The notes below the pieces were generated by a model. It saw nothing but the letters and a program-made list of their open reading frames with translations, was not told the origin of the DNA and searched no databases. A stretch of DNA of 64,000 bases from Oxalobacter formigenes (GTDB lineage Bacteria; Pseudomonadota; Gammaproteobacteria; Burkholderiales; Burkholderiaceae_D): assembly GCF_002127965.1 (NCBI RefSeq), contig NZ_CP018787.1:2046001-2110000 (forward strand). The letters are read 5' to 3'. This document shows, piece after piece, positions 16,601 to 56,100 of the stretch; positions within the stretch are counted from its first letter, which is position 1; the number at the start of each line of letters is the position of its first letter. The translations under genes and the position numbers were made by a program.

Positions 16601-19365
16601 TTCGCCCCCGCAGGCGTTGTCGCATCCCCCGACAGAGTCAGCGTCCGGTTGTTTTGCAAATCCAGCTGCGTCAGCCGGTAACTCGTAAACAGCCCGTTAT
16701 TGCCCGGCGAATCCGACACGCTCGTCAAACCATACGCATAACTGGCAACCGCTACCGTATTACCGTCCTGCTGGACATTCGACTGGACCGTGCCTGAAAC
16801 CGATCCCGACAAATCCTGCAAGACCAGATTCGAGGCCGAACCCTGTACCGTATTCGCACCGATCAAAAGCTGGTTCGTATTGCCATCATCCTGCTGCAAA
16901 AGCGGTTTCGCCGAAATGGCCGACGTGTCCGCATTGACCTGAACCGTTCCCGAGCCCAGATTCAGCACACCCGTCTGGATCACGCCGGTCGGCAAATTCG
17001 GGAACCGCAGCAATCCGCCGTTCAACTCCATATTGCCAACCGCCTGCGTCCCCGCCCCGACGTTCGTCGTACTGCCCGCATTCAGCCGCAACGTCGAATT
17101 GCCGAGCACCGCCGTATTCGTTCCCGACAAACTGAACGTACCGTCATTCAACTCGACCGTCCCGGCAAACGCCGTGCCTGCCGAACTGGCAAAGTCAAAC
17201 GTGTTCGTCCCCGAAGCCAGTCCCACCTTCAGCAACCCCGTCCCAAGCAGCGCATTGCCGAAACTGACATTCCCACTTGCAGGACTGTCGATTTCTAGCG
17301 TGCCGTTCGCATTCACCGTTGCAGAACCACTGCCCAGCGTCCCGTTTTCCGTCAACACCAGCGTTCCGGCATTCACAACCGTCCCATCGGTATAGCCCTG
17401 TACGGTCGGCAACAACAGCGTGCCTGCTCCGTTCTTGACCAGTTTCGCCGTCCCGCTAATGGGTGCTTCCAGCCTCAGCTCTTCTGCATTGCCACTGCTA
17501 TCGAGCCCGATCGTCGCATTAACGCTCGTCCCTGCATAAGCCGCTTTCAATGCACTGGATGAATTCAGCGTGCCATACCCCGTCAGATTCACCGTTCCGT
17601 TCACGGCATTACCCAGCGCAATAGCCGCGGAATCCAGCATCAGCGTGCCGCCTTCCACATCCAGAGAGGTTCCATTGTTGAGATTCAACGTCGCCACCTT
17701 CAGCGTCCCGGAATTTTCCCCTTTCAGCGTTGCTCCGCTCTTCAGGTCGAACGTGCCGAACGTCGTCCGCCCATACTTTACCCCGTCAGCCACCGTAAAC
17801 GTGCCGCCGTTGACTGTCGTATTGACGTTGATATCCGTATCGTAAGCCGTCGAGACCCCGTTATCCCCATAAAAAGCCGTCTCGCCCGTGCCGTTCTGGT
17901 TAAGCGTCAGCGTGCCACCGGCAACCAGCGACAGCGGGTCGTAAAAACGGATTGCATTGCCCTGCGACCCGTCAAGGTTGAGCGTATTGGACGTTTCCCA
18001 GTAAATCGCATTCGGCGTGCCCGTTCCCTCGACCGGCTTGTAGAAGGCATAAGAGTTGCCCGTATCCAGCGTCCTGTTTTCAGACACGAAAGTCGACCCC
18101 TGACGATTCCCCCTGAATACGATATCGCCCGTGTTCGCATTGATATTCAACGACCCTTTACGGATGTAAATCGCCCCGCCCAGCGTCTTGGCGGAGTTAT
18201 TCGTGAATTCAGCTGCCCCTGCAATATTGGCGGAACCGCCCTGCGCATTCAGGAAAATCGCGCCACCGTATCCACTGCCGTTCAAGGAATAAACATAATT
18301 GTTATTGAACGTCGAATGCCCGTTCATAAACAGATTGTAATTGTGAGTACCTGCTTCCCTCGACTGGTTCAAACCGATAGCCCCGCCCTGCGCATTATTG
18401 TAGGCCGTGGTTTTCAGGTCATTGACGAAATTGCCGTCAAACGTGGCGTCGCCATTAAACGTAATCGACGTTCCCGTTGTCCCGGCAGAAGCGATAAACC
18501 CCATATGAATCGCCCCGCCGCTGGCGCTGCGGTCAGTGTAATGGTTCGGGAAATCCTGCGTCGCCCCCATAATGCTGTAGGTGTAATTGTTCGTGAAACT
18601 CGTGTCCCCATTGAACACCAGCGTCCCGTTCCCGCCCCACATATCGATCGCGCCGCCGTAATGACCCGTATGGTTATTATTGAACAGCGTCGTCCCGTTG
18701 AAATTCACCGTCGGCGCCGCATCCGGATAAATCGCCATCGCCCCGCTGTAATTGGCCCCCCAGTTCGAATCGAACGTGACATTATTCAAAAAATTCATCG
18801 TCCCCGAACTGATCCCGATTGTCCCCGACTGGTCGGCCAGACCATGATTTCCCTTGAAAACGACCCCTTTCGCACCCCCGTCGATATTCGTGACACTGTT
18901 CACCCGCTGCGAAATGATCGGGCCATAATTGCCCGAGGCATACAGGTTGAAATTCGTCGGTCCGATATTCTGGAAAGTCGTCCCGTTGAAATCGAAATTC
19001 GTCGTAATCCCTGCCGAGCCGATCCAGAAAAGCGAATCTCGCACCCCGGCAAACGTCTGCGTCTCGACCACCGCGTCATTAATCGCCAGAGACCCGTTAT
19101 TGCGGCTGAAGTAAAAATAAACCCCCGTCGCCGGCCCGAACGTGATCTTGTGCCCGTTCCCGTTGATTTTCAGGTTATTCGTGTTCGTTGAAGCATACGT
19201 AAACGCCGTATTCCAGGAAACATCTCCCAGAAGATTCAGGTCGTATTGCCCCTTGCTGAGATACCCGCTGACCAGATCGTCACCAGACTGCACCGAAATC
19301 TGACCATAAGCCGGAAAAGCCAAAGAAAGTGCGATCACCACGCACGACGCGGAGGGTAGTTTCAT
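10696..19365 (-). CDS. Giant type Va autotransporter adhesin with beta-helix repeats
   Basis: 2889 residues. A cleavable signal peptide is at 1-22 (ends P-A-Y-G-Q). The first ~450 residues hold several G-G-A-I / F-x-x-N motifs like chlamydial polymorphic membrane proteins. The long middle has autotransporter-associated beta-strand repeats (T-L-x-L-T-G-x-N-T-Y-x-G-G-T) of about 57 residues, five containing F-N-R-S/G-D. A much larger duplicated block contains T-T-P-x-G-A-N-D-M-K-A-K-I-T-G-S-G-N-L. The last ~280 residues form the outer-membrane barrel (F-W-S-Y-V-E-A-G-Y-G start; final residues K-V-S-W, aromatic end). No obvious protease triad. Probable surface adhesin; ligand unknown. Single gene. 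Confidence 0.93.
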   Translation of the reverse strand: MKLPSASCVVIALSLAFPAYGQISVQSGDDLVSGYLSKGQYDLNLLGDVSWNTAFTYASTNTNNLKINGNGHKITFGPATGVYFYFSRNNGSLAINDAVVETQTFAGVRDSLFWIGSAGITTNFDFNGTTFQNIGPTNFNLYASGNYGPIISQRVNSVTNIDGGAKGVVFKGNHGLADQSGTIGISSGTMNFLNNVTFDSNWGANYSGAMAIYPDAAPTVNFNGTTLFNNNHTGHYGGAIDMWGGNGTLVFNGDTSFTNNYTYSIMGATQDFPNHYTDRSASGGAIHMGFIASAGTTGTSITFNGDATFDGNFVNDLKTTAYNNAQGGAIGLNQSREAGTHNYNLFMNGHSTFNNNYVYSLNGSGYGGAIFLNAQGGSANIAGAAEFTNNSAKTLGGAIYIRKGSLNINANTGDIVFRGNRQGSTFVSENRTLDTGNSYAFYKPVEGTGTPNAIYWETSNTLNLDGSQGNAIRFYDPLSLVAGGTLTLNQNGTGETAFYGDNGVSTAYDTDINVNTTVNGGTFTVADGVKYGRTTFGTFDLKSGATLKGENSGTLKVATLNLNNGTSLDVEGGTLMLDSAAIALGNAVNGTVNLTGYGTLNSSSALKAAYAGTSVNATIGLDSSGNAEELRLEAPISGTAKLVKNGAGTLLLPTVQGYTDGTVVNAGTLVLTENGTLGSGSATVNANGTLEIDSPASGNVSFGNALLGTGLLKVGLASGTNTFDFASSAGTAFAGTVELNDGTFSLSGTNTAVLGNSTLRLNAGSTTNVGAGTQAVGNMELNGGLLRFPNLPTGVIQTGVLNLGSGTVQVNADTSAISAKPLLQQDDGNTNQLLIGANTVQGSASNLVLQDLSGSVSGTVQSNVQQDGNTVAVASYAYGLTSVSDSPGNNGLFTSYRLTQLDLQNNRTLTLSGDATTPAGANDMKAKITGSGNLAIDATGTIILANANNDYSGNTSVNTGTLQLGTDHALGNTSLLTIADGASTDINGKTQTVDSLVGAGSLNVNGGNLTVSNGGYFSGVMSGNAGALTLAGGDLILSGANTFTGTTTQTSGLLQIGSGGTSGSYAGNIVAGGTVAFNRSDSSEYGGVISGDGNLVKSSTGTLTLTGNNTYGGGTQINAGTLAVGNGGTSGSIAGDVTNNGKLAFNRGDDITFGGVITGSGSLDKSGNGKLTLTAENAYAGTTVVNNGTLALLQENAAGTGTISLADTTTLQLGFNNGVFDNSIFGFAGSTVSVLGSNITLGVSNPVFSGTWNVTGSANISTPGNLGNGSVSLAGDLNLNAQAGNYAFNNALSGAGDLNVTMASGSDVFSFSNAANNGFTGTLSLGKSSFGLSGANTQVLANASLQLNNGNVTTVGDGEQAIGNLNLNGGSLAWDGFTTPEENPNGTISTNNLALNGGQIRVDMSAAGESNPPASGGSKLLQQDDGNVSSKLISAGHVTGDISNIQLADLNGNALAANQVVGVVENNVKVADASYNYGLTTGSGNDGVYLNYGLTQLDILANQTLTFSGDETTPDGANDMKAKITGSGNLAINATDKIILANTTNDYTGSTTVNSGTLQLGTDHALGNTSLLDIAAGATMDMNGKTQTVRALGGAGSLNVNSGNLTVSNGGDFGGVIAGDTGTVDLTGGTLTLTGENTFTGATTVASGSLQIGNGGTTGSYAGNIANEGSVIFNRSDDIAYGGVVNGSGNLVKDGNGTLTLTGVNAYTGGTEVNAGTLQIGDGGTNGIIIGDIANAGGVVFNRSDDIAFGGVISGNGSMSKEGNGVLTLTADQTYTGTTSVNAGTLAIGNGGTGGSITGDIANAGSVVFNRSDNLAYGGVISGTGQVEQAGNGTLTLTGNNTYDGGTQVSDGTLRLTGAGTPGSGTVNIASQGTLLVDSPNGNAYTFNNRLEGDGQLQVAMGSETDTFDFASGAGSRFTGKMNFDKGSMTLGDANTAALSQATLDLGENATVTMDGDRTIGNLTFGGGQLNTTLKNGTNVNVLTVGYLDVNADDSPAVPGTVNYVGGTLNPEPDRSGNLLLQGDINANNSIAIVRADSVSSVGTQLELLMDGVAPQDKTVVTTDGFGNDDLRATYGYMAVITDKKADNMTGLFGGYVLKTLESQTNAILDSTTAPDANFGAKLTGAGNFEFRANDNSITLVNAANDYGGQTTAASGTLNMGTNNVFGQTSALNIKNSATVNMNGHTQTVGELNGEDGSTLDLGGGSLTVTAGGNSNGILSGAGNLHLTGGTLVVANANENLSAAVDIQSGVTAQLLSTKGLGSGDISLAGQLQFSGAQGTLANRLNGAGAVTLADGSNMNFSADNSAFSGSVNIGSGTTLSASAGSQLGTATVANNGNLVLHSDGDWTFTNAMSGSGKLVKEGDGIIRVSSEYAHSGGTEITHGSLVMDNAASALSGSGDVRIAEGATLAGYGSIGGSVFNFGTLAVGNGSELLRSATTGTLTIAGGLTNSGAIHLGGAAVGNVLRVQGNFTGGGTLMLNTVLGDDTSATDKLVVEGNTSGSTAVLVNNKGGLGADTHNGIQIVQVDGASDGNFYLGSRVVQGAYDYRLYKGSIDNPDDGDWYLRSTRNDPTPVIRPEIGAYLANRDAAQTMFRHTLHDRMGESAFSEGKVASKNAPAFWSYVEAGYGTGRAAGQIEQRRWSNKVQVGGDFYRSTEDINNWRVGAMAGYGTLRSRSLTDGQAYRADSDLTGYNAGLYATWFADGKAGADGPYLDGWIQHGWFRNKVKGDELAEQRYNSRAWSGSVEGGWTFNAWSTNDYRFYVQPQVQVIYTRYHGNDVIENNGTVIENSHEDGISTRLGARFFGNGTGAGSRWQPYAELNWLHNNKASTIRIGDESFDSALPKNVAELKAGFEVVLNKNTNAWAQVRMQKGEDNYKSVGGLAGIKVSW

Positions 19366-33795: not shown

Positions 33796-34316
33796 GACGA
33801 TAAGGACGGAAACTGGTCCAGTGTGTAGGTTTTTCTTGGATAAGCCGTTTTCGACAAGTCAGCGAATCCGGCACGTGCTGTGACACGGAAAACGTCTGTC
33901 TCAACCGTGTTGATCACCATTGTCATGGGCGGATCGTTTTGTGGGCCGGACGGGTCAGACATCAGGTAAATCCGGTATGTAATCTCGATCAGGTAAGGCG
34001 TTCTGACCGCTGCTTCAATGCTGGTCACAATTTCACGACTGACGTTATCGATCGTCAGCACGATTTCGGGCTTTCCGCTTTCTGCGATTTCAGGTAATTC
34101 CAGATCGAATGCATACGGCAGGAATTCAACGGCTTCACCAGCGTTTTCAGGAGCTGACGCTTCCAGCGTTCCAGTAAACGACTTGTGGTCACGGACGACA
34201 CGAAGCGGCTGCGTGAAGGCCGGATGACGCATTTCTATCGTGTAAACGATAATCTCATCATCCGGAGCACTGGCATAGGCCTCTTTGATCGCTTCTTTCA
34301 GTGTGGTATCAGTCAA
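33792..34316 (-). CDS. Minor tail protein, DUF1833 family (gpL-like position)
   Basis: 174 residues, beta-rich: V-Y-T-I-E-M-R-H-P-A-F-T-Q-P-L-R-V-V at the start, F-E/L-P-Y-A-F-D-L-E-L-P in the middle and F-R-V-T-A-R-A-G-F-A-D-L at the end, features of DUF1833 tail proteins. Overlaps the peptidase gene by four bases and the preceding minor tail gene by eight. Confidence 0.8.
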   Translation of the reverse strand: MTDTTLKEAIKEAYASAPDDEIIVYTIEMRHPAFTQPLRVVRDHKSFTGTLEASAPENAGEAVEFLPYAFDLELPEIAESGKPEIVLTIDNVSREIVTSIEAAVRTPYLIEITYRIYLMSDPSGPQNDPPMTMVINTVETDVFRVTARAGFADLSKTAYPRKTYTLDQFPSLSS

Positions 34317-40407: not shown

Positions 40408-41640
40408 TTAAGCGCCCGCCGCAACTTTCAATGCTCGCAGTGGTTGCGGGTCAAGCAAGCCGCCACCGACACGCTTGGTTGTGTAGAAAGAAACGTACGG
40501 CTTGTTGGTATATGGATCGCGGAGAACGCGAACACCAATACGGTCAAGGATCATGTAGCCTTTATTAAAGTCACCAAACATGATTGGCAGTGCATTCGCT
40601 GCAACGTCTGGCATATCCGGGATTTCAGTGATCGGGAAATTGCATAGTGTGGCCGGTTGTCCGGCGACATAGGACGGCTGCCACAGGTAATTTCCCTGCC
40701 CGTCTTTCAATTTTCGGACAAAACCCTGCGTCTTGCGGTTCATGGTGAACCTGGCATTGCCGGTGTAAACGCTCGGCAAGTCATAGATAAGGTCAATAAT
40801 GCCGTCCGCCGTAATAGCTGTTGCAGAACCACTATTCACAGCCGCAATTGCGCCATAGGGATGTTTCGCCGCATTAGTTCCACCGGTGACATACGTCAGA
40901 ATGCCGGTCGGTTTATTTGTGCCATTGCCTGATACAAAAGCAGCTCCTTCCTGAAAGGCGAATTCCTGCTGTACTTCTCCTGCAAGCCATGTCTCAATAT
41001 CGATTTCAGCGTCATCCAGAATCTGCTGTGTTGCTGCTGGATTGGCATAAATCTCACCAGTGGTATATTCCAGTTCTGCGAACGTCGGATTGGATGTCGC
41101 TGGACGTGCTGCCGTTTCGCCAACCCATCCGGAAGTGGCTCCCTTCAGGTTAAACAGTTTCTTGAAATTGGCCTTGGATGTCGGTTGTACAAAGCAAATC
41201 TGGCGCATTGGTGACACAAGAACCAGCTTGTCAGCAATGGTACGATCCCATTCGCTTGGAGCCAGATAACCGCCTTCATCAGATGCGCCTTTATTCAGGG
41301 CCGCCTGAATTTCTCCTTTTTTGAAGTGGGCATTGAAAGCGTCCGTATATTCTGCGTCCCTGACTTTACGTCCGCCGACACTGGCATTTTGAGAAGCAGC
41401 AATTTTTACATGTGCGTCCTCGATTTCTTTTTGGAGGCGGTCAATGTCGGCATTGATTCTGTCGACTTTCAGTGCCTGAAGCGCATCATCGTGCCCTTTT
41501 TTGAGCGAGTCAATTTGTTTGGTATGCTCTGCCTTGAACGTATCGAAAGCTTTATTGACTTCATCAACAAGCGCCCTGACTTCGGATGTGCCTGCCTCGG
41601 CTCGTACGTCGACTAAACCGCGAATAATTTGTACTGTCAT
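40408..41640 (-). CDS. Major capsid protein, HK97 family
   Basis: 410 residues. The N-terminal ~100 residues are a charged coiled coil (delta/scaffold domain, K-A-E-H-T-K-Q-I-D-S-L-K). The HK97 fold then has S-D-E-G-G-Y-L-A-P-S-E-W-D, S-P-M-R-Q-I-C, A-R-F-T-M-N-R-K-T, G-D-F-N-K-G-Y-M-I-L-D-R and a terminal A-L-K-V-A. The scaffold is probably removed by the protease encoded just upstream. Confidence 0.95.
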   Translation of the reverse strand: MTVQIIRGLVDVRAEAGTSEVRALVDEVNKAFDTFKAEHTKQIDSLKKGHDDALQALKVDRINADIDRLQKEIEDAHVKIAASQNASVGGRKVRDAEYTDAFNAHFKKGEIQAALNKGASDEGGYLAPSEWDRTIADKLVLVSPMRQICFVQPTSKANFKKLFNLKGATSGWVGETAARPATSNPTFAELEYTTGEIYANPAATQQILDDAEIDIETWLAGEVQQEFAFQEGAAFVSGNGTNKPTGILTYVTGGTNAAKHPYGAIAAVNSGSATAITADGIIDLIYDLPSVYTGNARFTMNRKTQGFVRKLKDGQGNYLWQPSYVAGQPATLCNFPITEIPDMPDVAANALPIMFGDFNKGYMILDRIGVRVLRDPYTNKPYVSFYTTKRVGGGLLDPQPLRALKVAAGA

Positions 41641-41705: not shown

Positions 41706-42539
41706 TTAGTTTTTCATGCTATGCAACAGTGACTTGATCAGTGCTGTTGCTTCAGTGCCAGCGCACGGCTTGGCAGGTTCGGCAGCGCACGGCGTACCGC
41801 TTTCAAAAAGCGACTTCAAAGCTCCCCGACGGGCGCTTCTCGAATATCCCGCCTTCGCCATCGCCGCTTCAATCATTGCGAGTGGTTTCTTCCTTCCGGC
41901 TCCTTCGCTGTGGACAGATTCAACGGATATCTTTCCCGTCGCGAAGCCATCTTCTATTGCCTGATCGGCTGATAACCACGTCTCTTTATCCATCATTTCC
42001 GAGACAAATTTTTTGTCTAAGCCAGATCTGCTTGCGTAAAGGGATGCCATTGCGTCGTCAAACGGGGTCATGAGTGCGGACGCTTCGGCTAAATCATGGC
42101 GGTTTCCAACTGCCACGGCCCAAGCGTTGTGAATCATCAGAAACGCGCCCTCCCCCATCAGAATTTCATCGCCAGCCATCGCAATGACTGAAGCAGCGGA
42201 CGCCGCAAGACTAAGAACCCGGCAAGTTACTTTTCCCTTGTGCTCTCTCAACTGGTTATAGATAGCGACGCCTTCGAAGAAATTTCCACCCGGTGAATTG
42301 ATATCGACGACAATATCCGAACCTTCAGCATTGCGGAGAACGGCTGCAATGCGTTTTGCCGTAATTCCCCCGCCTTCCATGTTCTCACCGATAGTATCCA
42401 ATATCGATATCGTGGCTGCGCTTTCAGTTGCAGATTTAACATCCGGTAACCATCTGTCAACCGCGTCGGGGCGTAAATCAAACTGGGCTGCCGAAAGCTT
42501 GAAATCAGACTTTATTTCTGGCAATACAATCAAACTCAT
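41706..42539 (-). CDS. ClpP-like prohead maturation protease
   Basis: 277 residues of the S14/S49-type phage protease. I-N-S-P-G-G-N-F-F-E-G (oxyanion region), Ser114 in L-A-A-S-A-A-S and His136 in M-I-H-N-A-W. It cuts the capsid scaffold during head maturation. Overlaps the portal gene by four bases. Confidence 0.92.
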   Translation of the reverse strand: MSLIVLPEIKSDFKLSAAQFDLRPDAVDRWLPDVKSATESAATISILDTIGENMEGGGITAKRIAAVLRNAEGSDIVVDINSPGGNFFEGVAIYNQLREHKGKVTCRVLSLAASAASVIAMAGDEILMGEGAFLMIHNAWAVAVGNRHDLAEASALMTPFDDAMASLYASRSGLDKKFVSEMMDKETWLSADQAIEDGFATGKISVESVHSEGAGRKKPLAMIEAAMAKAGYSRSARRGALKSLFESGTPCAAEPAKPCAGTEATALIKSLLHSMKN

Positions 42540-43765
42540 TGTTTTCCTTTCTGTGTCATCGGGTTCCTTAATTCGTCCGCCGAAGAATCGTTTGACCGTG
42601 GGAGGTCGACTACTTCGCGAACTTCATTAGGAGTCATCCACGGCGCTTGTCCGCCAGCTCCCAACGCTTTGCTAAGGAAGTTTGCCTGTTCCGTCATCGA
42701 GCCGCGCAGCAACGCCGCCTCGTTGAACTGAAACTGATACTGCTCCATTTCTTCTTCTGTCAGCAATACTCTGACAAGTGCCTGCTCCCACGCAGTAAAC
42801 CAGGGCGCTAACGTGTACTGGACAAGAAAAATACCCAGCTGGCTTATCCCGCTGCCCCATGAAGTGTCATCCATCATTAAAAGCGGCCTTGGAACGCCAT
42901 AAAGTCTGGCCACTTCCTCAATCTGGTGATTACGGTTTTCTATCTGCTGCGCGTCCGCTGCCGTGCTGCTAAATTTGACGACTTTCCCGCCGCCTTCAAT
43001 AACCATAAATTTCCCGACGTTTTCAGCGCCGGTATAATTTTCCTCCATTGAAGTTTTTATGCGATCGTATGCGGTTTCACTCAGATTATTCGGAAATTCC
43101 AGTGCTCCACCAGCCATATTTCCGGTGTTGAATACTCTAGACGCAGCACGTTCTGCATCTTGCGCCAGCTTGATGGCTTCAGCCCCCAATTTAACGGGAG
43201 CCAACCCGATTAGTCCGTCTGTCGTAAGTCCCCTGAGATGAAAGACCTCGGACGATTCCAGCCGAACCGTATTACCTGATGGCGTCGTCCAGTCATAATG
43301 GACATTCCAATCATCGCTCTGTTTCGGCACACAAGTTCCCAATTTCATCGGGATCATGCAAATTGGACGCCCAGCCGACCGAATCACCCGCGCATAACCG
43401 TTACCGGACAAAAGCGCATGAGTTTGCATCATGCTTTTAAATTCAAACGGTGTTTGCCATTTGTTTGGGCGTCTTTTTACAAGCCGATAGGCTGGATGAT
43501 TTCCAGCAAGCGTTTTGTCTGGTGATGTTGAAATCAGGTTAAGGGGTAATCTACCTATGCTGTTTGAAATGACTGAAATTGCCCGCATGCAAGCCGTATT
43601 TTTCAAGGCATCATTGGATGCGCCACCTTTTACCCCGACGCGTAAAAATTCAAGAAACTCAGGGTCGTCTAAAAATTGCGGAGCCGCCAAAGAACCCTCA
43701 GCAGAAACTCTTCTTTCCGGCTCTGCCGCAATTGGCTTTTGCCTGAAAAAATCAAGTAATCCCAT
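42536..43765 (-). CDS. Portal protein, HK97 family
   Basis: 409 residues. K-N-T-A-C-M-R-A-I-S-V-I-S-N-S-I-G near the start, N-G-Y-A-R-V-I-R, Y-G-V-P-R-P-L-L and a helical crown at the end (E-E-M-E-Q-Y-Q-F-Q-F-N). Forms the dodecameric DNA gate at one capsid vertex. Confidence 0.93.
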   Translation of the reverse strand: MGLLDFFRQKPIAAEPERRVSAEGSLAAPQFLDDPEFLEFLRVGVKGGASNDALKNTACMRAISVISNSIGRLPLNLISTSPDKTLAGNHPAYRLVKRRPNKWQTPFEFKSMMQTHALLSGNGYARVIRSAGRPICMIPMKLGTCVPKQSDDWNVHYDWTTPSGNTVRLESSEVFHLRGLTTDGLIGLAPVKLGAEAIKLAQDAERAASRVFNTGNMAGGALEFPNNLSETAYDRIKTSMEENYTGAENVGKFMVIEGGGKVVKFSSTAADAQQIENRNHQIEEVARLYGVPRPLLMMDDTSWGSGISQLGIFLVQYTLAPWFTAWEQALVRVLLTEEEMEQYQFQFNEAALLRGSMTEQANFLSKALGAGGQAPWMTPNEVREVVDLPRSNDSSADELRNPMTQKGKQ

Positions 43766-43774
43766 GCACTTCCC

Positions 43775-45463
43775 CTAAACGAATCTCAATCCGCGATCTT
43801 CATAAACTGATTTTCCGCTCGTTGGATTCATGTTCATGAGTGATACCGCATTAAAAACCGCCATCAGCGGATCAATTTTTGCCTTGCCTGATGCCTGTTT
43901 TGTGATCAGAATGGCGTTCCCTCTATCTTCAACCCGGGCATTTCCAACGCACCATGCCATTATTGGCTGGCCTGCGTGGACCAGTTCTCCGCCTGCAACT
44001 TTTCTTTCTGTCGTCTTGATCGCGCCGTTCAACTTCCATCCTTGCGGGACTGCCACCATCTGATCAATGCCGAATCCTCTTCCGTCGGATGTCAGTTCAT
44101 TGATAATGTCGCCGATCCCGGCAGAATCAACACCCAGGAATTTATCCGCTGCCAACAAACCTGTATCCCGCACGTAGCAGATCATGTCTGAAACATCAGA
44201 AATATCATCGCCGGGGTTAGTGACTATCGTTAAATCACCCTGCTTTTCAAAGTCCAGTAATGCAGGGGCAATTTCTTTTCGTCTTTCCAGCGCAATCCGG
44301 TGCGCCCATGCGTGTACCCACACAAGCCATTTGCGCGTTTCTTTTTCTCGTCCGATAAACGCTAACCCGAGCAGGTCATCAAGACCCCCGCCATCAATAC
44401 CGCAAACAATTACTTCGCTTCGATTAATCAGGTCATCGAGTGATGTCAGATTTTTGTCTTGTTCGGCCTCCCAAAAATCGGCACCAGCCCACCTGTCCGA
44501 TTGCAGGTTTAACCCAATCTCGACATTTAAATGTTTTGCCAAAAAACCGCGTAATGATTCCTCGCCTGCTGATTTTGCTTTCTCAAATTCCCGATTCAAA
44601 AACTCGACATCTACGGATGCGCCAAGGTTCGGATTTGTAATGTAAAAGTTTTCCGGGTTGAGGTATTGTTTTTCATCCCGCATTTCATTCGGGAACTCAT
44701 AAAGCACCGGCAGGAATTTATTATCATCAATCTTTCCGTCTCGAACATCCCTTGCGTATTGCAATTTCTGTCTGAACACTCCGGCCGGAGGCGCATCGGA
44801 TTGTGTCGTGAGGTAAATAACAAACCCTTCGGGACGTGATGCAAGGCCGCCACACGCTTCACGAAGCATGTTTTCAGCATTCGCCCTTTTCCCGAACAAC
44901 CATAATTCGTCAACCAGTATGCCTATCGCCTTTTTACCGCCAACGGTTTCACTGTCAGCAGCGACCACTTTTAATGTCGCTCCTGTTGTGCGATGGGTGA
45001 TAGTCCTGATGTGGTCTTGCACCTGAAGCAATGCGCTTAAGTCCTCGTCTGCGCGTACCATATCCCGCGCCGGATAAAAGGAGTTATTCGCAATCTCGAC
45101 AGTCGGGGCAAGAATAATAAACTCGCCGGACTGACGCCAATTCAAAATCAACGCTGTCAGCATGATTGCGGCGGCATCTGTTGATTTTCCATTCTTCTTG
45201 CTGATCAGCATCATGAATTCCTGAATCAGCCGCCTTCCACTTTCAGGATCATATGCGCCAAAAATACTGGAGACGAAATCAGTTACCCACGGTCTGGATA
45301 CTTCGGCCATTGTCGGCATACCGGGAGCGTCAACCATTCGCAAACTCCCGAATACATTGAGCGCCTCGCTTGCCTCTGATTCAAATAACGGCGAAAAAGG
45401 AATAAGCGATTGCCCAGCAACAATTCTTGTTTTCCAGTCATGGCATGCTGTCGTCCATTCCAT
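43775..45463 (-). CDS. Terminase large subunit
   Basis: 562 residues. The ATPase domain has Walker A-like I-S-K-K-N-G-K-S-T (about 98-106), I-L-A-P-T-V-E-I-A and Walker B I-G-I-L-V-D-E-L-W. The RNase-H-like nuclease has V-C-G-I-D-G-G-G and later G-V-D-S-A-G. Packages and cuts phage DNA. Follows the small subunit after three bases. Confidence 0.94.
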   Translation of the reverse strand: MEWTTACHDWKTRIVAGQSLIPFSPLFESEASEALNVFGSLRMVDAPGMPTMAEVSRPWVTDFVSSIFGAYDPESGRRLIQEFMMLISKKNGKSTDAAAIMLTALILNWRQSGEFIILAPTVEIANNSFYPARDMVRADEDLSALLQVQDHIRTITHRTTGATLKVVAADSETVGGKKAIGILVDELWLFGKRANAENMLREACGGLASRPEGFVIYLTTQSDAPPAGVFRQKLQYARDVRDGKIDDNKFLPVLYEFPNEMRDEKQYLNPENFYITNPNLGASVDVEFLNREFEKAKSAGEESLRGFLAKHLNVEIGLNLQSDRWAGADFWEAEQDKNLTSLDDLINRSEVIVCGIDGGGLDDLLGLAFIGREKETRKWLVWVHAWAHRIALERRKEIAPALLDFEKQGDLTIVTNPGDDISDVSDMICYVRDTGLLAADKFLGVDSAGIGDIINELTSDGRGFGIDQMVAVPQGWKLNGAIKTTERKVAGGELVHAGQPIMAWCVGNARVEDRGNAILITKQASGKAKIDPLMAVFNAVSLMNMNPTSGKSVYEDRGLRFV

Positions 45464-46252: not shown

Positions 46253-46329
46253 TGGTATGCCGGGATGGATTTGAACCATCAGCCGTCAAATTATGAGTTT
46301 GAAGCTCTTACCACTTGAGCTACCGGCAC
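46253..46329 (-). tRNA. tRNA with anticodon CAT (Met or Ile2), phage-encoded
   Basis: Minus strand: acceptor GTGCCGG / CCGGCAT (one G-U pair), D-arm GCTC / GAGC, anticodon stem TCAAA / TTTGA with loop CTCATAA (anticodon CAT), five-base variable loop, T-arm GATGG-TTCAAAT-CCATC, discriminator A and encoded CCA (46253-46255). All arms pair. CAT may read Met, or Ile AUA if the C is lysidine-modified. Its start is 3 bases downstream of a terminator-like hairpin. Confidence 0.9.
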
Positions 46330-47402: not shown

Positions 47403-47738
47403 TCAATGTCGTGTATGCTCTGCAACCGCTTCGACAACCAGATCATTCAAGCTCTTCCCGCTTGCCGCTGCCTTGATCGCAACCTCCGCATGCAATTCAG
47501 GAGACATCCGGATATTGAAACGGCCTGAATACGACTTGTACGGCTCAATACCCTTTTCTTTGCACATTTCAAGATAGACATCGAGAGACCGCTTCCCTTC
47601 TTTTTTCAGCCCATCAATGTCCGATGCGTAAAAATCAGCGCCGCCAGACAAGCCAAGAAATTCACCTCGAAACATTTCAATTTCCGGATCGTACTGGATA
47701 ACCGCCTTTTGCCCGTCAATGATCATAATATTGTTCAA
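47403..47738 (-). CDS. HicB-family ribbon-helix-helix antitoxin-like protein
   Basis: 111 residues. N-terminal partial RNase-H-like HicB fold (Y-D-P-E-I-E-M-F-R-G-E-F-L-G-L-S-G-G-A-D-F-Y-A). The C-terminal ribbon-helix-helix has F-N-I-R-M-S-P-E-L-H and A-A-A-S-G-K-S-L-N-D-L-V-V-E-A-V. No HicA gene adjoins. Instead it overlaps an Xre antitoxin gene by four bases, giving a three-gene unit. It may be a third regulator of that unit. An ATG four codons later (47726) is an alternative. Confidence 0.8.
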   Translation of the reverse strand: MNNIMIIDGQKAVIQYDPEIEMFRGEFLGLSGGADFYASDIDGLKKEGKRSLDVYLEMCKEKGIEPYKSYSGRFNIRMSPELHAEVAIKAAASGKSLNDLVVEAVAEHTRH

Positions 47739-48091
47739 AGAAATGCCTTATAAGAAATGTTGTATGCTTTCCCAATCCGCTTTGCCATATCCACAGAAAT
47801 AGGACGAACACCGTTTTCCATTTCTGAAACCCGTGTCTGTTGAATTCCAAGAACGGCCGCCAGTTGTTTTTGTGTAATCTCTTCTCTGGCCCGTAAACCA
47901 CGTAATGCCATGCCGGGATTAGCGTCTGGAAATACTTCGTCTATTGTGTAAAGCTTATCGCCTTCTTCGTTGACTGGTCGTATATCTGCCAGTTGCAATA
48001 GACTTGAAATAGCGTCACATATCTTTGACGCCATTTCTGTCGGTACGGTGAGACTGATTTCAGTCAATCCGTCCGTAATCTGCGTTTTCAT
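47735..48091 (-). CDS. Xre-family antitoxin
   Basis: 118 residues from the ATG at 48091. The C-terminal helix-turn-helix (I-T-Q-K-Q-L-A-A-V-L-G-I-Q-Q-T-R-V-S-E-M-E-N-G-V-R-P-I-S) follows an N-terminal Leu/Ile-rich part. Its start overlaps the end of the toxin gene. It neutralises the RelE-like toxin and probably represses the operon. Confidence 0.85.
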   Translation of the reverse strand: MKTQITDGLTEISLTVPTEMASKICDAISSLLQLADIRPVNEEGDKLYTIDEVFPDANPGMALRGLRAREEITQKQLAAVLGIQQTRVSEMENGVRPISVDMAKRIGKAYNISYKAFL

Positions 48092-48353
48092 GTGTGCCAA
48101 CATATCGTACCTCTATTAATCTGATTTCTCTATCTGTTACTTTCCATATAGCCACATAGCGTGGCTTCCCCTTATTCAGGTGGCAGTGATATACATCCTT
48201 CTTCCCAACAATCTTTCCGAAATGCGGCCATCCTGTTAATTCAGGCCCTCCCGCTGTCAAATCTTTTTCCAGCAAATACAATACATCCCTCATGCTTTTT
48301 GGGAGTTTGTCTTTTTGTTTCCGCGCTTTTCCTGTTGTGAGAACTTGCCACAT
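48060..48353 (-). CDS. RelE-family toxin
   Basis: 97 residues: L-P-K-S-M-R-D-V-L, L-T-G-W-P-H-F-G-K-I-V-G-K-K-D-V-Y-H-C-H-L, K-P-R-Y-V-A-I-W-K-V and the terminal I-E-V-R-Y-V-G-T-H-E-N-A-D-Y of the RelE/HigB-like cytotoxic group. First gene of the trio; AT-rich upstream region (48354-48450) with short A/T palindromic stretches where regulators may bind. Confidence 0.88.
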   Translation of the reverse strand: MWQVLTTGKARKQKDKLPKSMRDVLYLLEKDLTAGGPELTGWPHFGKIVGKKDVYHCHLNKGKPRYVAIWKVTDREIRLIEVRYVGTHENADYGRID

Positions 48354-48450
48354 AGAATATTTAAGTAATATATTATTTTTTAGATATTATATATCAATTT
48401 TGGATATATTCCAAGAAAGTCGTTTTAATTTTCACCAAGGTAATCAAAAT

Positions 48451-48470
48451 AAAAACCCGCCGAAGCGGGC
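48451..48470 (-). terminator. Terminator after the antirepressor gene
   Basis: Minus strand: CCCGC-TTCG-GCGGG (UUCG loop) then T5-ATTTT; just past the 23-codon reading frame. Confidence 0.8.
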
Positions 48471-48477
48471 ATAAAAT

Positions 48478-48549
48478 TCATATCGTCCAAAAAATCGTCA
48501 TCGCTACAACAAATAAAAACCACGACGTACTATCAATTACATGGCTCAT
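48478..48549 (-). CDS. 23-residue membrane peptide following ant
   Basis: A 24-codon frame whose ATG overlaps the antirepressor stop (ATGA). It encodes a single hydrophobic stretch (S-W-F-L-F-V-V-A-M-T-I-F-W-T-I). Size and shape resemble type I toxin-like or regulatory membrane peptides, but translational coupling is the only evidence. Confidence 0.35.
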   Translation of the reverse strand: MSHVIDSTSWFLFVVAMTIFWTI

Positions 48550-49259
48550 TTCGCACCTCGCAGTTTCAAAATGAGTGCGTCACGATGTTTGGCACGGTGA
48601 GATAAAGCTGTGATACAGGCCTGCGCGATTTCTTCAATAGTGGAGTCTTTCAGGCCGATATTGGTAGGGTCAGCAATAGCCTTTGCTAAACCATCGTATG
48701 GAGATGGGCGCGGCCTAACGCACACTCTTCCGTCATAGTCGATAGAAAGAAGGAAATCATGCTTCCAAATTGACATTGCCAATATTCCGATAAGCACTTC
48801 TTCCGGAACATCTACATCAGGACGACTCTTTCCTTTACTGACAGCATCGCGATATTTTTCAAAAAAATCTGATGCCGCTTCTCTTCCTTTTTGAAAGACG
48901 TTCTGATTTAGTAAATCAAATTCTGGTTGTTTGTGGTGAAGGTTTGTTTCTCTATCCAATACATCTAGTACCCATCGCCGGAATTCTTTTGCAATGGGTG
49001 TCCGGGAAAACATGGCGACAAGGTGTGCGCCTCGTAAACTAAAAACACGCCGTTCAGCCTTTAAATTCGCCGTGCTACCCAAATTGGGTAAGCGAGTCAT
49101 TTCGTCGGTAAATTCGTCTGAATTTCGGTTGTAAATTTTGGTTACGGCATTTTCGTTGGCATAGCCAAGCGCCGCAGCCAGTTGTGCAGATGAAATGTAA
49201 ATTCGATTGTTGATAGACTGGACGTTGAATGTAATGCCGCGGAATGCGAGATTAGACAT
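48546..49259 (-). CDS. ant: Phage antirepressor (P22 Ant N-terminal family)
   Basis: 237 residues from the ATG at 49259. The N-terminal Ant/Bro-like domain has F-R-G-I-T-F-N-V-Q, I-Y-I-S-S-A-Q-L-A-A-A-L-G-Y-A-N-E-N-A-V, R-N-S-D-E-F and R-V-F-S-L-R-G-A-H-L-V-A-M-F-S-R-T-P-I-A-K-E-F-R-R-W-V-L-D. Such proteins bind and inactivate phage repressors. The ribosome site GGAG is part of a target (49268-49275) complementary to the upstream C4-type RNA, so translation should be silenced in the lysogen. Confidence 0.88.
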   Translation of the reverse strand: MSNLAFRGITFNVQSINNRIYISSAQLAAALGYANENAVTKIYNRNSDEFTDEMTRLPNLGSTANLKAERRVFSLRGAHLVAMFSRTPIAKEFRRWVLDVLDRETNLHHKQPEFDLLNQNVFQKGREAASDFFEKYRDAVSKGKSRPDVDVPEEVLIGILAMSIWKHDFLLSIDYDGRVCVRPRPSPYDGLAKAIADPTNIGLKDSTIEEIAQACITALSHRAKHRDALILKLRGAK

Positions 49260-49267
49260 GATATAAC

Positions 49268-49307
49268 TCCGTACAAGTAGTTTGTTTTTCCACCTACCCC
49301 CGACCAA
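49268..49307 (-). promoter_or_regulatory. C4 target sites a' and b' overlapping the ant ribosome site
   Basis: Minus strand: TTGGTCG (49301-49307) and TGTACGGA (49268-49275), each exactly complementary to a segment of the C4-like RNA (CGACCAA at 49330-49336 and TCCGTACA at 49342-49349). The second includes part of the GGAG ribosome site of ant. Confidence 0.8.
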
Positions 49308-49309
49308 GA

Positions 49310-49386
49310 GGGTGGGCAGACCATGCAGGTTGGTCGACCGGTGTACGGAACCCGGCAAGCCCGAAGGCTTCCCGCATGACCCGCCC
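49310..49386 (-). ncRNA. c4: C4-type antisense RNA controlling ant
   Basis: Minus strand, same direction as ant. Closing helix GGGCGGG / CCCACCC, hairpin AAGCC-TTCG-GGCTT with a UUCG tetraloop, and a GACC / GGTC hairpin. The exposed segments TCCGTACA and CGACCAA can pair with the ant leader. Layout and bases agree with the C4 RNA of phages P1/P7, an RNA processed from the leader of the ant transcript that blocks its translation. I identify it from memory of that family and from the complementarity seen here. Confidence 0.82.
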
Positions 49387-49440
49387 ATTAAGGAGCCATG
49401 CTGTGGACGAAAAAATACCGCACTGGTGGCGGTTCGTCCG

Positions 49441-49462
49441 CCGTACACATTCGAGCGACCAA
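49441..49462 (-). promoter_or_regulatory. Second pair of C4 target-like sites upstream of C4
   Basis: Minus strand: TTGGTCG (49456-49462) and TGTACGG (49441-49447), same order as the ant-proximal pair, near the start of the predicted leader. Could pair with C4 and affect its processing, act as decoy or cause early termination. Confidence 0.65.
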
Positions 49463-49492
49463 GCCCGGCACCATTTTTTGTGGTGCATATGA

Positions 49493-49522
49493 AGGATAGC
49501 TTGATTGTTCTGATTGTGTCAA
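49493..49522 (-). promoter_or_regulatory. Promoter of the c4-ant transcript
   Basis: Minus strand: TTGACA (49517-49522), 18-base spacer, TATCCT (49493-49498). Consensus -35. Transcription should start near 49486, run through the second target pair, C4 and then ant. Confidence 0.7.
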
Positions 49523-49531
49523 CATAACAAC

Positions 49532-49762
49532 ATGATTGAAAAAATTAAAAATTGGTGGCGGGGGAAATACATACCTCCCCCCAAAAACGATCCTGATAGC
49601 CAAATTGTCTTTATCAGCCCGGGGCGCTACGAGAGACCGTTTCTGGCAAAGGTTTACGAGTTTATAAAATACAACCTGCCAAACGAAAAAGGCTGGTTCA
49701 TAAAGCTACTTGTTGGCGGTGCCGTCGCTTTTGCTATCGCTATCGTCAGCAAATCCCTTTGA
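49532..49762 (+). CDS. Small membrane protein divergent from ant
   Basis: 76 residues from the ATG at 49532. The basic N-terminus (I-E-K-I-K-N-W-W-R-G-K-Y-I-P-P-P) precedes a C-terminal membrane helix (L-L-V-G-G-A-V-A-F-A-I-A-I-V). Its promoter would overlap that of c4-ant on the other strand, and its 3' end overlaps the next minus-strand gene by 57 bases. Unknown function; might be expressed in the lysogen. Confidence 0.55.
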   Translation: MIEKIKNWWRGKYIPPPKNDPDSQIVFISPGRYERPFLAKVYEFIKYNLPNEKGWFIKLLVGGAVAFAIAIVSKSL

Positions 49763-49942
49763 AATAACCCCTATCTCCAAGCTATCAACATCCCAAAGCA
49801 GAAACTTCGCGCCCATCTCGTCCAACATGGAAATCTGGCTTATAACATTTTCTCTTTGTTCTGCTGTTAAAGGTTTGGTAGTCTTGACGATAATAATGTC
49901 TCCTGGACTCGCCTTTTTAACCTGATCAATAATTTTTTCCAT
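49706..49942 (-). CDS. Small phage protein of unknown function
   Basis: 78 residues if started at 49942 (94 if at 49990). The sequence (E-K-I-I-D-Q-V-K-K-A-S-P-G-D-I-I-I-V-K-T-T, R-E-N-V-I-S-Q-I-S-M-L-D-E-M-G-A-K-F) suggests an alpha/beta fold; the tail is acidic and disordered. Follows the Q-like gene; antisense overlap with the small membrane protein gene. Confidence 0.5.
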   Translation of the reverse strand: MEKIIDQVKKASPGDIIIVKTTKPLTAEQRENVISQISMLDEMGAKFLLWDVDSLEIGVISKGFADDSDSKSDGTANK

Positions 49943-49958
49943 ACTTTTATTAAATTCC

Positions 49959-50363
49959 TCAATACCAACGTGCAATATGATTGAGAGCATCTCGCACCAG
50001 ACGGTTATATTGGCTTTCAGATATCCGCAATACCCTTGCGCCGTCCATCCTACATTTTGCCTTTTCTCTCTTTTCGTTTACTGATGCCTTTCCTAGTACG
50101 TAAAGCAAAAATGCTTCCCTCTTTTTCTTGGGTACATTTCGAACGATATCTTCCATATCCTCGGCAGCTAGAACGTCAACAGGCGGGACATACTCGCAAA
50201 CACAGAGATCCCCGCGATCCGGAAGTTTTACAGCGTAACGCATGATGCAAGTGTAAGACTTCGGGTAAAACCTCTTATCCAATCCCCATCTGATCCAGTT
50301 ATCTAGTTCAGGCTTCAGCATTTTCATTACTTCCAATGTTTTTAATTGTTCGTAATTCTGCAT
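49959..50363 (-). CDS. Q-like late gene regulator (putative)
   Basis: 134 residues, GAGGG ribosome site. W-I-R-W-G-L-D near the N-terminus, then V-P-K-K-K-R-E-A-F-L-L-Y-V-L-G and a C-terminal R-I-S-E-S-Q-Y-N-R-L-V-R-D-A-L-N-H-I-A resembling region-4-type helix-turn-helix of phage antitermination / late activators. Its place between replication and packaging genes is that of lambda Q. An antiterminator here would explain how late genes are read through the many terminator-like hairpins downstream. Confidence 0.55.
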   Translation of the reverse strand: MQNYEQLKTLEVMKMLKPELDNWIRWGLDKRFYPKSYTCIMRYAVKLPDRGDLCVCEYVPPVDVLAAEDMEDIVRNVPKKKREAFLLYVLGKASVNEKREKAKCRMDGARVLRISESQYNRLVRDALNHIARWY

Positions 50364-50371
50364 TCAAACCC

Positions 50372-50482
50372 TCACAAGAAGTGGCCAACAATAAAACCCC
50401 AGACAAACCCGCTTGCCATCGACAAAAAAAACAAAATTAAAAGGCCGGATAGAAAATCGATGTTTGTATTTTTTTTATCCAT
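50372..50482 (-). CDS. 36-residue membrane protein
   Basis: The frame starts at the ATG at 50482 behind AAGGTAAGAA and encodes a polar start followed by one long hydrophobic helix (L-L-I-L-F-F-L-S-M-A-S-G-F-V-W-G-F-I-V-G). It fills the gap between the resolvase and Q-like genes on the same strand. Unknown function. Confidence 0.5.
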   Translation of the reverse strand: MDKKNTNIDFLSGLLILFFLSMASGFVWGFIVGHFL

Positions 50483-50492
50483 TTCTTACCTT

Positions 50493-50948
50493 TCAGAATT
50501 CTTGCTTAAGTGCATAACTTAAAAGGGCAAGCGCATCGGCATGGTTATCGTCTACTATGTTAAATCCTCGACGTTTTGCCTCGTTTATCATCGCCTCCTT
50601 GTCTGCGTTACCCTTCCCTGTCCAATATTTTTTAATGACGCCGACGCCAACCGGATGACATGGTATGTTTCGTGTCACACACAGCATTTCCAGAATCGCC
50701 AGATAGCCGCCGTATGCGTGTGCGGCGAGCACCCCTGCATGTGCCTTCACATCTTCAAAATAAACGATGTGCACACCATCCAAAGCCATCTGTGTCCATT
50801 CTTTAAATCGTGCCCATCGGATTGCTTGACGTTCTGTTTTCTTCGGTTTGAAATGTTGTGTCCCACCCGTAATCTTCCCGCCCCGCTCATATTTAGCCCA
50901 TCCAGTTTTGGTGCCGATGTCTATGGCAAGAATGTTCACTTCATTCAC
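50493..50948 (-). CDS. RuvC-like Holliday junction resolvase
   Basis: 151 residues. RNase-H-like fold with D-I-G-T-K-T-G-W-A at the N-terminus (first Asp), Y-F-E-D-V-K (Glu), and K-E-A-M-I-N-E-A followed by N-H-A-D-A-L-A-L-L (last two acids). All four catalytic acidic positions appear present. Resolves branched phage DNA before packaging. Overlaps the next gene by eight bases. Confidence 0.85.
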   Translation of the reverse strand: MNEVNILAIDIGTKTGWAKYERGGKITGGTQHFKPKKTERQAIRWARFKEWTQMALDGVHIVYFEDVKAHAGVLAAHAYGGYLAILEMLCVTRNIPCHPVGVGVIKKYWTGKGNADKEAMINEAKRRGFNIVDDNHADALALLSYALKQEF

Positions 50949-54783: not shown

Positions 54784-55113
54784 TCACTCACCATCTCCAT
54801 ATCCCTCAAGCTGATCTTCCATCCAGTTAGCAGCCATACGCATAGCTGCCGGAAACGCTTTCTGCATTTCTCGGCTAATTGGCATATCGTTGACGTCTGT
54901 AATCTTTAATTCACACGCCGTCAGTAACAGGAAAAACTGAAAAAAGCGGTCGTCATTTGTCCAACGGTTAACGGTTGAGTCATCCACCCCGATGCGCTCC
55001 GATGCAGTTACTTGCGTTACGTCTGCAAGTCGTTGCAGAAACTCCGCCCTGAGTTTTTGGGCTTTTCTGCGTGTCTTTGCATGTCGTTCTTGAGATACTG
55101 TTTCCGTTGTCAT
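54784..55113 (-). CDS. cII: CII-like transcription activator
   Basis: 109 residues from the ATG at 55113. A-S-E-R-I-G-V-D-D-S-T-V-N-R-W is the lambda CII-type DNA-reading helix pair, followed by F-F-Q-F-F-L-L-L-T-A-C-E-L as in CII. It lies directly after cro and before the replication genes, the position of cII, and overlaps cro by four bases. Expected to promote lysogeny. Confidence 0.8.
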   Translation of the reverse strand: MTTETVSQERHAKTRRKAQKLRAEFLQRLADVTQVTASERIGVDDSTVNRWTNDDRFFQFFLLLTACELKITDVNDMPISREMQKAFPAAMRMAANWMEDQLEGYGDGE

Positions 55114-55355
55114 TGATTTGTCCGTTTGTGGTTGTCGGCCAGCTCTGGCCATGTGTACATATAGTTGTTTGGGCGCAAATCTTTCCGAGTAACGATGCCA
55201 TTTGTAACGCGCTCTATTGCAGAGCAATGGTCGGCGGAAATCTTTCGTTTTTTGTCTCTCCAGAAACAAACGGTTTGAGGCGAGACACCAATGGCTTTAG
55301 CTAAAGCTGTGGCACTCCCCATGTGACGAATTGCAAGCAAAATATTTTTATCCAT
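55110..55355 (-). CDS. cro: Cro-like repressor
   Basis: 81 residues: M-G-S-A-T-A-L-A-K-A-I-G-V-S-P-Q-T-V-C-F-W-R-D-K-K-R-K-I-S, a Cro/YdaS-type helix-turn-helix, and R-K-D-L-R-P at the end. First gene of the leftward early operon, divergent from cI across the operator region. Confidence 0.85.
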   Translation of the reverse strand: MDKNILLAIRHMGSATALAKAIGVSPQTVCFWRDKKRKISADHCSAIERVTNGIVTRKDLRPNNYMYTWPELADNHKRTNQ

Positions 55356-55434: not shown

Positions 55435-56100
55435 ATGAGCCTCGGAAAACAAATAAAAAAATATCGCCAGCAACTGGATTGGACTCTTGAAAAACTAGAG
55501 GAAGAGTCTGGCGTCCCGAAAGGGACGATTAGTGCGCTTGAGGTAAGAGATAGCGACCGATCTAAATATGCACCTGAAATAGCGCGAGCTTTCGGCATAT
55601 CAGTAGATCAGTTAATGGATGAAAATATTGATGCTTCGGAGGCTGTGAATTCTCATGAGAAAAGCAAAGGCGATGACGAACATACCATCCGGCAGTTCAA
55701 CACTGGCGGAGGCATGGGAAACGGCCTAATCCTGCAAGAACAATCCGGAATTATTGAAAATTTCCGCGTTTCTTCAGCATGGCTTCATGCAAATATTAAA
55801 GGCCACTCATCTACCAAAAATCTTTGCATCGTAACTGGATATGGTGAGTCAATGAAACCGCTTTTTAACCCCGGCGATCCTGTTATTGTTGATTTGCAAA
55901 TAAAAGAATATGTCGGCGAATTCCCTTATTTTTTCCGCATAGAAAACGAGGGATTTATTAAGCGACTTCAACGAGTGCCTGGCGAAGGCTACCGTGTTTT
56001 ATCTGATAATCCAAAATACGAAACGTGGACAATTAAGCAAGGAATGGACTTTGAGATATTTGGCAAAGTCATCAAAGTATGGAAGAGCGAGGATTTTTGA
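55435..56100 (+). CDS. cI: CI-like prophage repressor
   Basis: 221 residues. N-terminal helix-turn-helix (L-D-W-T-L-E-K-L-E-E-E-S-G-V-P-K-G-T-I-S-A-L-E). C-terminal S24 domain with Ser139 in G-Y-G-E-S-M-K-P-L-F-N-P-G-D and Lys176 in G-F-I-K-R-L. The usual Ala-Gly cleavage pair is not seen in the linker; Gly-rich T-G-G-G-M-G-N-G (90-97) is the only candidate. It keeps the lytic operons off from the operator clusters on both sides. Confidence 0.9.
   Translation: MSLGKQIKKYRQQLDWTLEKLEEESGVPKGTISALEVRDSDRSKYAPEIARAFGISVDQLMDENIDASEAVNSHEKSKGDDEHTIRQFNTGGGMGNGLILQEQSGIIENFRVSSAWLHANIKGHSSTKNLCIVTGYGESMKPLFNPGDPVIVDLQIKEYVGEFPYFFRIENEGFIKRLQRVPGEGYRVLSDNPKYETWTIKQGMDFEIFGKVIKVWKSEDF

Follow-up and report, generated by a model that had tools for sequence, protein, structure and literature searches.

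The 64-kb stretch of Oxalobacter formigenes DNA analysed here (the window) carries, on its minus strand and within a prophage region, a C4 antisense RNA locus situated ahead of an antirepressor gene, ant. The locus has two sets of target sites for the RNA, one upstream (a1 and b1) and one downstream (a2 and b2), and its presence with both sets is confirmed by the observations described below. We consider it very probable that it acts as a C4 switch on ant in which a1 and b1 are functional as well, an estimate that leaves aside the termination step proposed further on. According to our best reading, C4 would block ant translation at a2/b2, as in phage P1, and would act on early termination at a1/b1, as has been reported for P4.

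The locus adds a new member to an established family, whose upstream target pair is known but under-explained. The present analysis shows this second pair to be a general part of C4 loci, by which the ‘putative’ a1 and b1 sites of P1 gain a testable role. It also places three literatures, i.e. those on P1 C4, P4 CI-seqA and Gifsy-1 IsrK, on one map, a connection that is already partly in print. Of what is new here, the predicted attenuator under the control of C4 is the most useful.

Identification and fold of the C4 RNA

The Rfam C4 model (RF01695) matched the minus strand at 49392-49308 with 72.6 bits, where the cut-off is 45 (E 3.2e-12 in the 64-kb window), and the match covers model positions 1-87, end to end. 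The original prediction had described a C4-type RNA of 77 bases, folded and bearing a UUCG hairpin. The covariance-model search bears out its identity, and the fold is equally well supported, as the 77-base RNA (49386-49310) has a predicted folding energy of -42 kcal/mol (z -3.47) with the UUCG hairpin present. Because the P1 RNA begins 6 bases inside its model match, the start of the window RNA is placed at 49386, which agrees with the start originally assumed, and a mature RNA of approximately 49386-49310 is expected from the P1 comparison. The two segments that would recognise the targets were located by alignment to the C4 model and by their complementarity to the target sites. They occupy the places usual in C4 RNAs: a' (49336-49330) lies in the 3' junction and b' (49348-49342) in the loop of the second hairpin.

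Target sites and promoter

Along the minus strand the elements follow in the order: promoter-like site, leader with a1 and b1, C4, a2, b2 and ant. The a' segment is exactly complementary to TTGGTCG at 49462-49456 (a1) and at 49307-49301 (a2), and b' is exactly complementary to TGTACGG at 49447-49441 (b1) and at 49275-49269 (b2). At b2 the complementarity to C4 comprises 8 bases, reaching 49268 (TGTACGGA, 49275-49268), and the site overlaps the GGAG at 49270-49267, read as the ribosome-binding site, just ahead of the ant ATG at 49259. The two segments reported earlier as matching the ant leader, one of them over the ribosome site, are these a2 and b2 sites; the second pair, said to lie upstream in the same order, was likewise recovered as exact matches, with the spacings originally given (a-b gaps of 8 bases upstream and 25 downstream). 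In 20,000 dinucleotide shuffles of both flanks, the pair of 7-mers appeared once upstream, once downstream and never on both sides. With one occurrence per 20,000 shuffles of the upstream flank, chance was rejected as an explanation of the upstream pair.

The consensus promoter that had been proposed for the locus stood in part. TTGACA (49522-49517) and TATCCT (49498-49493) are indeed present with a spacer of 18 bases, which gives 10 of 12 consensus positions for the site as a whole (49522-49493), and the site ends 6 bases ahead of hairpin I of the leader (see below). However, sites scoring 10/12 number 3 in the region 48900-50600 against 3.1 expected, and as this equals the chance level, the promoter match alone proves nothing.

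Conservation of both target pairs among C4 loci

The generality of the two target pairs was assessed in a set of 134 C4 loci with 132 distinct C4 sequences, composed of 21 matches in 60 relatives, the 116 matches above the cut-off that a search of 399 genomes of the order yielded (6 of them shared), and the loci of P1, P7 and Gifsy-1. In the 399-genome search 8 of the 124 matches were below the cut-off and were excluded; up to 10 candidates per genome were scored, and the C4 counts per genome in this search are lower bounds, to be read as ‘at least’. The set of 132 loci used for counting excludes the Bordetella phage (L027) and P4. Sites were defined as exact matches of at least 7 bases, lying no more than 200 bases upstream (a1, b1) or 100 bases downstream (a2, b2).

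Both a1 and b1 were found upstream in 87 of the 132 loci, against 0.5 when C4s were swapped between loci (mean of 20 rounds), and both a2 and b2 were found downstream in 89 of the 132 (0.1 with swapped C4s, mean of 20 rounds). In the C4 alignment, the complementarity clusters in the a' and b' columns. Among loci in which both sites have at least 6 bases, the gap is 5-12 bases upstream in 103 of 106 and 16-30 bases downstream in 98 of 104, which makes the spacing asymmetry a rule of the family. A start codon follows b2 after 2-22 bases in 100 of 108 loci.

The upstream pair had originally been regarded as something special. This does not hold: P1 has putative a1/b1 sites, Rfam models them (RF03163), and most of the C4 loci examined carry the pair with the same compact spacing. 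The idea that the pair is peculiar to this prophage was consequently rejected, given the presence of both sites in 87 of 132 loci. The same survey bears on the suggestion that a1 and b1 are functionless relics of a duplication of the C4 targets, which would suit the word ‘putative’ attached to the upstream sites in the P1 record. We find this most improbable, as the upstream sites match the C4 of their own locus about as often as the downstream sites (87 versus 89 of 132), and the hairpins of the leader covary (see below).

Beyond a' and b', the 3' end of C4 (alignment columns 97-105) also showed a weaker excess of complementarity to the flank downstream of the same C4, with approximately 30 versus 15 matches per column. 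As for C4s residing in the same genome, where avoidance of a shared specificity among prophages was looked for, 1 of 225 within-genome pairs was alike in both a' and b', against 0.49 expected, and this lone pair consists of two identical C4s in one genome. On contig C65 of genome G009 two C4s of different specificity (360-444 and 1029-1113) lie on one strand within about 0.75 kb, as if antirepressor cassettes had been stacked. The genome that contains the window has a second C4 locus of its own (C1:1437145-1437232, minus strand), which differs in its a'/b' letters and sits between a Bro-N gene and a KilA-N gene.

The leader as an IsrK/seqA-like RNA

Judged by its sequence, the leader of the C4 locus resembles RNAs of the IsrK/seqA type. 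The isrK model (RF01394) matched it at 49486-49411 with 44.8 bits, below the cut-off of 50 (E 5.9e-9 for the 181 bases searched). The Rfam family c4-a1b1 (RF03163, ‘a1, b1 targets of C4 antisense RNA’) corresponds to the upstream pair of the window and occupies the same place, but the window leader scores 22.3 bits against its cut-off of 46.7, and a search of the whole genome with this model gave no match at E 0.01. The c4-a1b1 motif was published in 2010, with a table giving γ-Proteobacteria and phages as its range (PMC2864571). Folding of the window leader by itself was no better than that of its shuffles (z -1.11).

In the 399 genomes there are 56 isrK matches with E below 1e-5, and 55 of them lie directly 5' of a C4: 48 beside surveyed C4s and 7 more beside further C4s that exceed the cut-off. 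The sole match of this quality without an adjoining C4 is L154 (101-188, plus strand) in genome G095.

An alignment of 62 leaders, chosen by eye from 104, was submitted to RNAalifold, which predicted two hairpins and no others. These are hairpin I (49486-49468), which begins with the isrK match and is likely to lie near the 5' end of the RNA, and a hairpin with a1 in its loop (49467-49452). Both covary among the 62 leaders, since for 9 of the 10 predicted pairs both sides have changed in at least one sequence. Neither of the hairpins T and X, described in the next section, was predicted by RNAalifold from the 62 leaders. MAFFT shifts the terminator arms between rows, and for this reason T was tested locus by locus.

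A predicted terminator/antiterminator switch

Two overlapping hairpins were proposed for the remainder of the window leader. Hairpin X (49442-49428), a putative antiterminator drawn from fold prediction, uses the last two bases of b1 in its 5' arm. Hairpin T together with its U run (49433-49410) is a putative terminator, in which a 5-pair stem (hairpin 49433-49417) is followed by AUUUUUU. A short isrK RNA ends at an intrinsic terminator; the window has a hairpin and a U run, but its T is predicted to be weak and C4-dependent, the stem being short, at approximately -6 to -7 kcal/mol.

In the fold prediction for the free window transcript ending on the U run, X forms with a value of 0.94 and T with 0.004. 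When a1 and b1 were barred from pairing, which is the sole way in which occupation of the sites by C4 was modelled, T rose to 0.97. The predicted switch hinges on occupation of the final three bases of b1. In a transcript extended past the U run, T and an outer stem around it are predicted to form with or without the block.

Of the 132 loci, 94 have a terminator-like hairpin with a U run no more than 70 bases 5' of C4, compared with 19.1 in shuffles. The switch was tested in 80 of the 132 loci, i.e. those which, among 112 with in-register target calls, have a terminator-like hairpin after b1. Blocking the sites raised T by 0.297 on average over these 80 loci, whereas the same-shaped block shifted 5' raised it by 0.009. 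With both sites blocked, T went up by over 0.2 in 33 of the 80 loci and down in 1, compared with 13 up and 7 down for random 7-base control blocks. A strict switch, with T passing from below 0.3 to above 0.7, was predicted in 21 of the 80 loci, where 3.9 were expected; among loci from the genus of the window it was predicted in 6 of the 11 that were usable. In 40 of the 80 loci T was already above 0.7 without C4, and T is predicted by default in Gifsy-1 and P4 too. The free value was low in 29 loci, 6 of which stay low under the block. An outer stem around T, with at least 5 paired bases, is present in 64 of 94 loci versus 42.6 with swapped partners, and in 20 versus 11.5 of the 45 loci without GTCCG; it may be regarded as moderately supported.

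These fold predictions give the upstream target site the look of a transcription stop under RNA control. We rate the chances of a termination step exerted by C4 at a1/b1 as even. The wider proposal is that a1/b1 constitute a C4-driven attenuator here and in part of the C4 family, in which C4 at b1 would break the antiterminator and force the terminator; to this we would give a little under an even chance. If it is true, one small RNA shuts its own operon at both transcription and translation and sets its own level, and Gifsy-1 IsrK would have to be seen anew, as a leader that belongs to a C4 RNA and serves as its decoy partner. The original prediction had offered two possible roles for the upstream pair, competition for C4 or coupling to the RNA's own level. 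At the window locus, fold prediction would favour the coupling, brought about through termination.

Proposed mechanism

Taken together, we propose that the locus serves a prophage antirepressor gene as its immunity leader, made up of the promoter, the IsrK/seqA-like leader with a1/b1, C4, a2/b2 and ant. We infer that it is expressed, and that the read-through transcript would be cut, at the 5' end of C4 by RNase P if the P1 precedent applies, to yield the C4 RNA of about 77 bases. The a' and b' segments of this RNA would pair with a2 and b2 and cover the ant ribosome-binding site, as in P1, so that the antirepressor would not be made and the CI-type repressor would stay in force. C4 would pair with a1 and b1 as well, thereby breaking the antiterminator, which uses the end of b1, and allowing the terminator to form. 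By freeing the terminator, C4 would halt its own operon ahead of both C4 and ant. Such a step would parallel the control of early termination by the P4 CI RNA at seqA, as reported in PMC10111431.

Comparison with P1, P7, P4 and Acinetobacter

The P1 record places putative a1 (48255-48261) and b1 (48269-48276) upstream of c4 with a gap of 7, and the targets a2 (48423-48429) and b2 (48452-48459) downstream of it with a gap of 22. The immI loci of P1 and P7 (c4-icd-ant) share with the window the C4 RNA, the same order of the four sites, the position of b2 at a ribosome site and the antirepressor gene downstream. The compact upstream and wide downstream spacing is common to P1 (7 and 22) and the window (8 and 25). 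In P1 and P7, however, the icd gene stands between c4 and ant, whereas the window has no icd gene between C4 and ant and the start of ant adjoins b2 directly. P1 also has other a'/b' letters, and the window Ant is a Bro-N protein. The P1 terminator is predicted to be less dependent on C4, passing from 0.55 to 0.93 as compared with 0.02 to 0.98 in the window. The leaders of P1 and P7 exceed the cut-off of c4-a1b1 and remain below that of isrK. The P1 C4 RNA is reportedly processed by RNase P (in part after PMC5320573).

The P4 CI RNA with seqA/seqC scored 60.8 bits with isrK, 74.9 with C4 and 44.1 with c4-a1b1, the last being below the cut-off. It resembles the window locus in its isrK and C4 matches and in carrying a pair of exact targets on either side of C4, with gaps of 9 and 24. 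It differs in the longer distance between leader and C4, in its location inside the satellite's own immunity gene and in a terminator that is predicted by default (0.96). A paper of 2023 describes the detection of relatives of P4 CI and seqA with the C4 and isrK profiles (PMC10111431), and a table of 2025 gives C4 and isrK side by side in Xylella.

The C4-like sRNAs of Acinetobacter baumannii have the C4 fold in common with the window RNA. They differ in their number, with 21 C4-like copies in one genome, and their targets are not established in the source (PMC5320573). RNA-seq of A. baumannii gave more reads for the C4 part than for the region upstream, with a start at a GG motif (PMC5320573).

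The Gifsy-1 isrK-orf45-anrP locus

The isrK-orf45-anrP locus of Gifsy-1 exceeded the cut-offs of isrK (79.3 bits), c4-a1b1 (48.1 bits) and C4 (69.0 bits). Its order of isrK, C4 and antirepressor gene is that of the window (where isrK scores 44.8 bits), but its terminator is predicted with or without C4 (0.995). In print, the locus is presented as an sRNA/mRNA with a small ORF, and the main text makes no mention of C4 (PMC4825925). A stable RNA, STnc1160, is described downstream of IsrK (PMC4825925); from the layout of isrK and C4, it would correspond to the C4 RNA. When the RNA start is set at 34316 of NC_010392, 11 of the 11 published bases agree, while other starts within 8 bases give at most 6. 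With this start G28 and G31 fall in a1, and within C4 a' they are partnered by C162 and C159.

The published Gifsy-1 mutant data may be read in terms of a C4 RNA with two target sets. Basal anrP expression was 4 in the wild type and 93 and 218 with a1 broken; the highest values, 484 and 926, were obtained with a' broken, and those with only the a1:a' pairing restored were 224 and 327 (PMC4825925). Such an order is expected of a C4 that acts on two target sets, as the double mutants leave a2 without its match.

The Gifsy-1 data also bear on another role for a1/b1, in which a short terminated leader RNA carrying both sites would act as a decoy, binding up C4 and freeing ant in the manner of the short IsrK supplied in trans on anrP. 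Besides the Rfam identification of isrK-orf45-anrP as a C4 locus, two published results point to it: IsrK in trans lifts an anrP translation fusion 139-fold and a transcription fusion 8-fold, and activation is lost when IsrK carries G28A or G31A, two changes located in a1 (PMC4825925). The 8-fold rise could reflect relief of termination or better translation of the message. The competition for C4 suggested originally would be in keeping with this trans-activation. However, the authors explain the activation by direct pairing of IsrK, which opens the orf45 ribosome site (PMC4825925), and for the short RNA of the window the prediction is poor termination when C4 is absent. Moreover, a constitutive orf45 RNA, which includes the C4 part, strengthened the growth arrest caused by IsrK, whereas a simple decoy predicts otherwise (PMC4825925). 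The stronger arrest fits neither the termination nor the decoy model simply, and it counts against the C4 reading of Gifsy-1. On balance we regard a mainly decoy role as possible but rather doubtful; it can coexist with termination control. A P4-like termination role for STnc1160 was raised by the authors themselves (PMC4825925). A full-text literature search, outside which most subscription journals lie, found no paper that treats the action of IsrK on anrP as a C4 matter.

ant and its prophage surroundings

The ant gene (48546-49259, minus strand) encodes a 237-aa antirepressor, which contains a Bro-N domain (PF02498, E 3.2e-10) and matches the phrog_5060 anti-repressor Ant (E 2.5e-34). Of five Ant relatives four are in betaproteobacterial records, and Bordetella phage matches were found as well. 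The window also contains genes for a terminase (43775-45463), a portal (42536-43765) and a major head protein (40408-41640), and a CII-like gene (54784-55269, minus strand) that is divergent from a CI-like S24 repressor gene (55435-56100, plus strand). As this repressor gene lies in the same prophage region as the C4 locus, the C4 RNA would be a second lock, which lends support to the earlier claim of an RNA-based lysogeny lock beside CI.

It might be supposed that this prophage carries the locus in a decayed or silent state. This seems quite unlikely, as the four target sites are all still exact and open, recognisable genes remain for Ant, the terminase, the portal, the major head protein and the CII-like and CI-like proteins.

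Downstream of ant, a close-set group of minus-strand genes (47403-48353) consists of a HicB-family gene (47403-47738), an HTH gene (47735-48103) and a small gene (48060-48353), and is possibly toxin-antitoxin-like. A tRNA gene identified by Rfam (46256-46329, minus strand) lies within the prophage region, on the stretch that separates the terminase genes from ant. Apart from the phage genes covered here, the window contains an open frame of 2889 aa (10696-19365, minus strand) with PATR autotransporter passenger repeats and an autochaperone domain.
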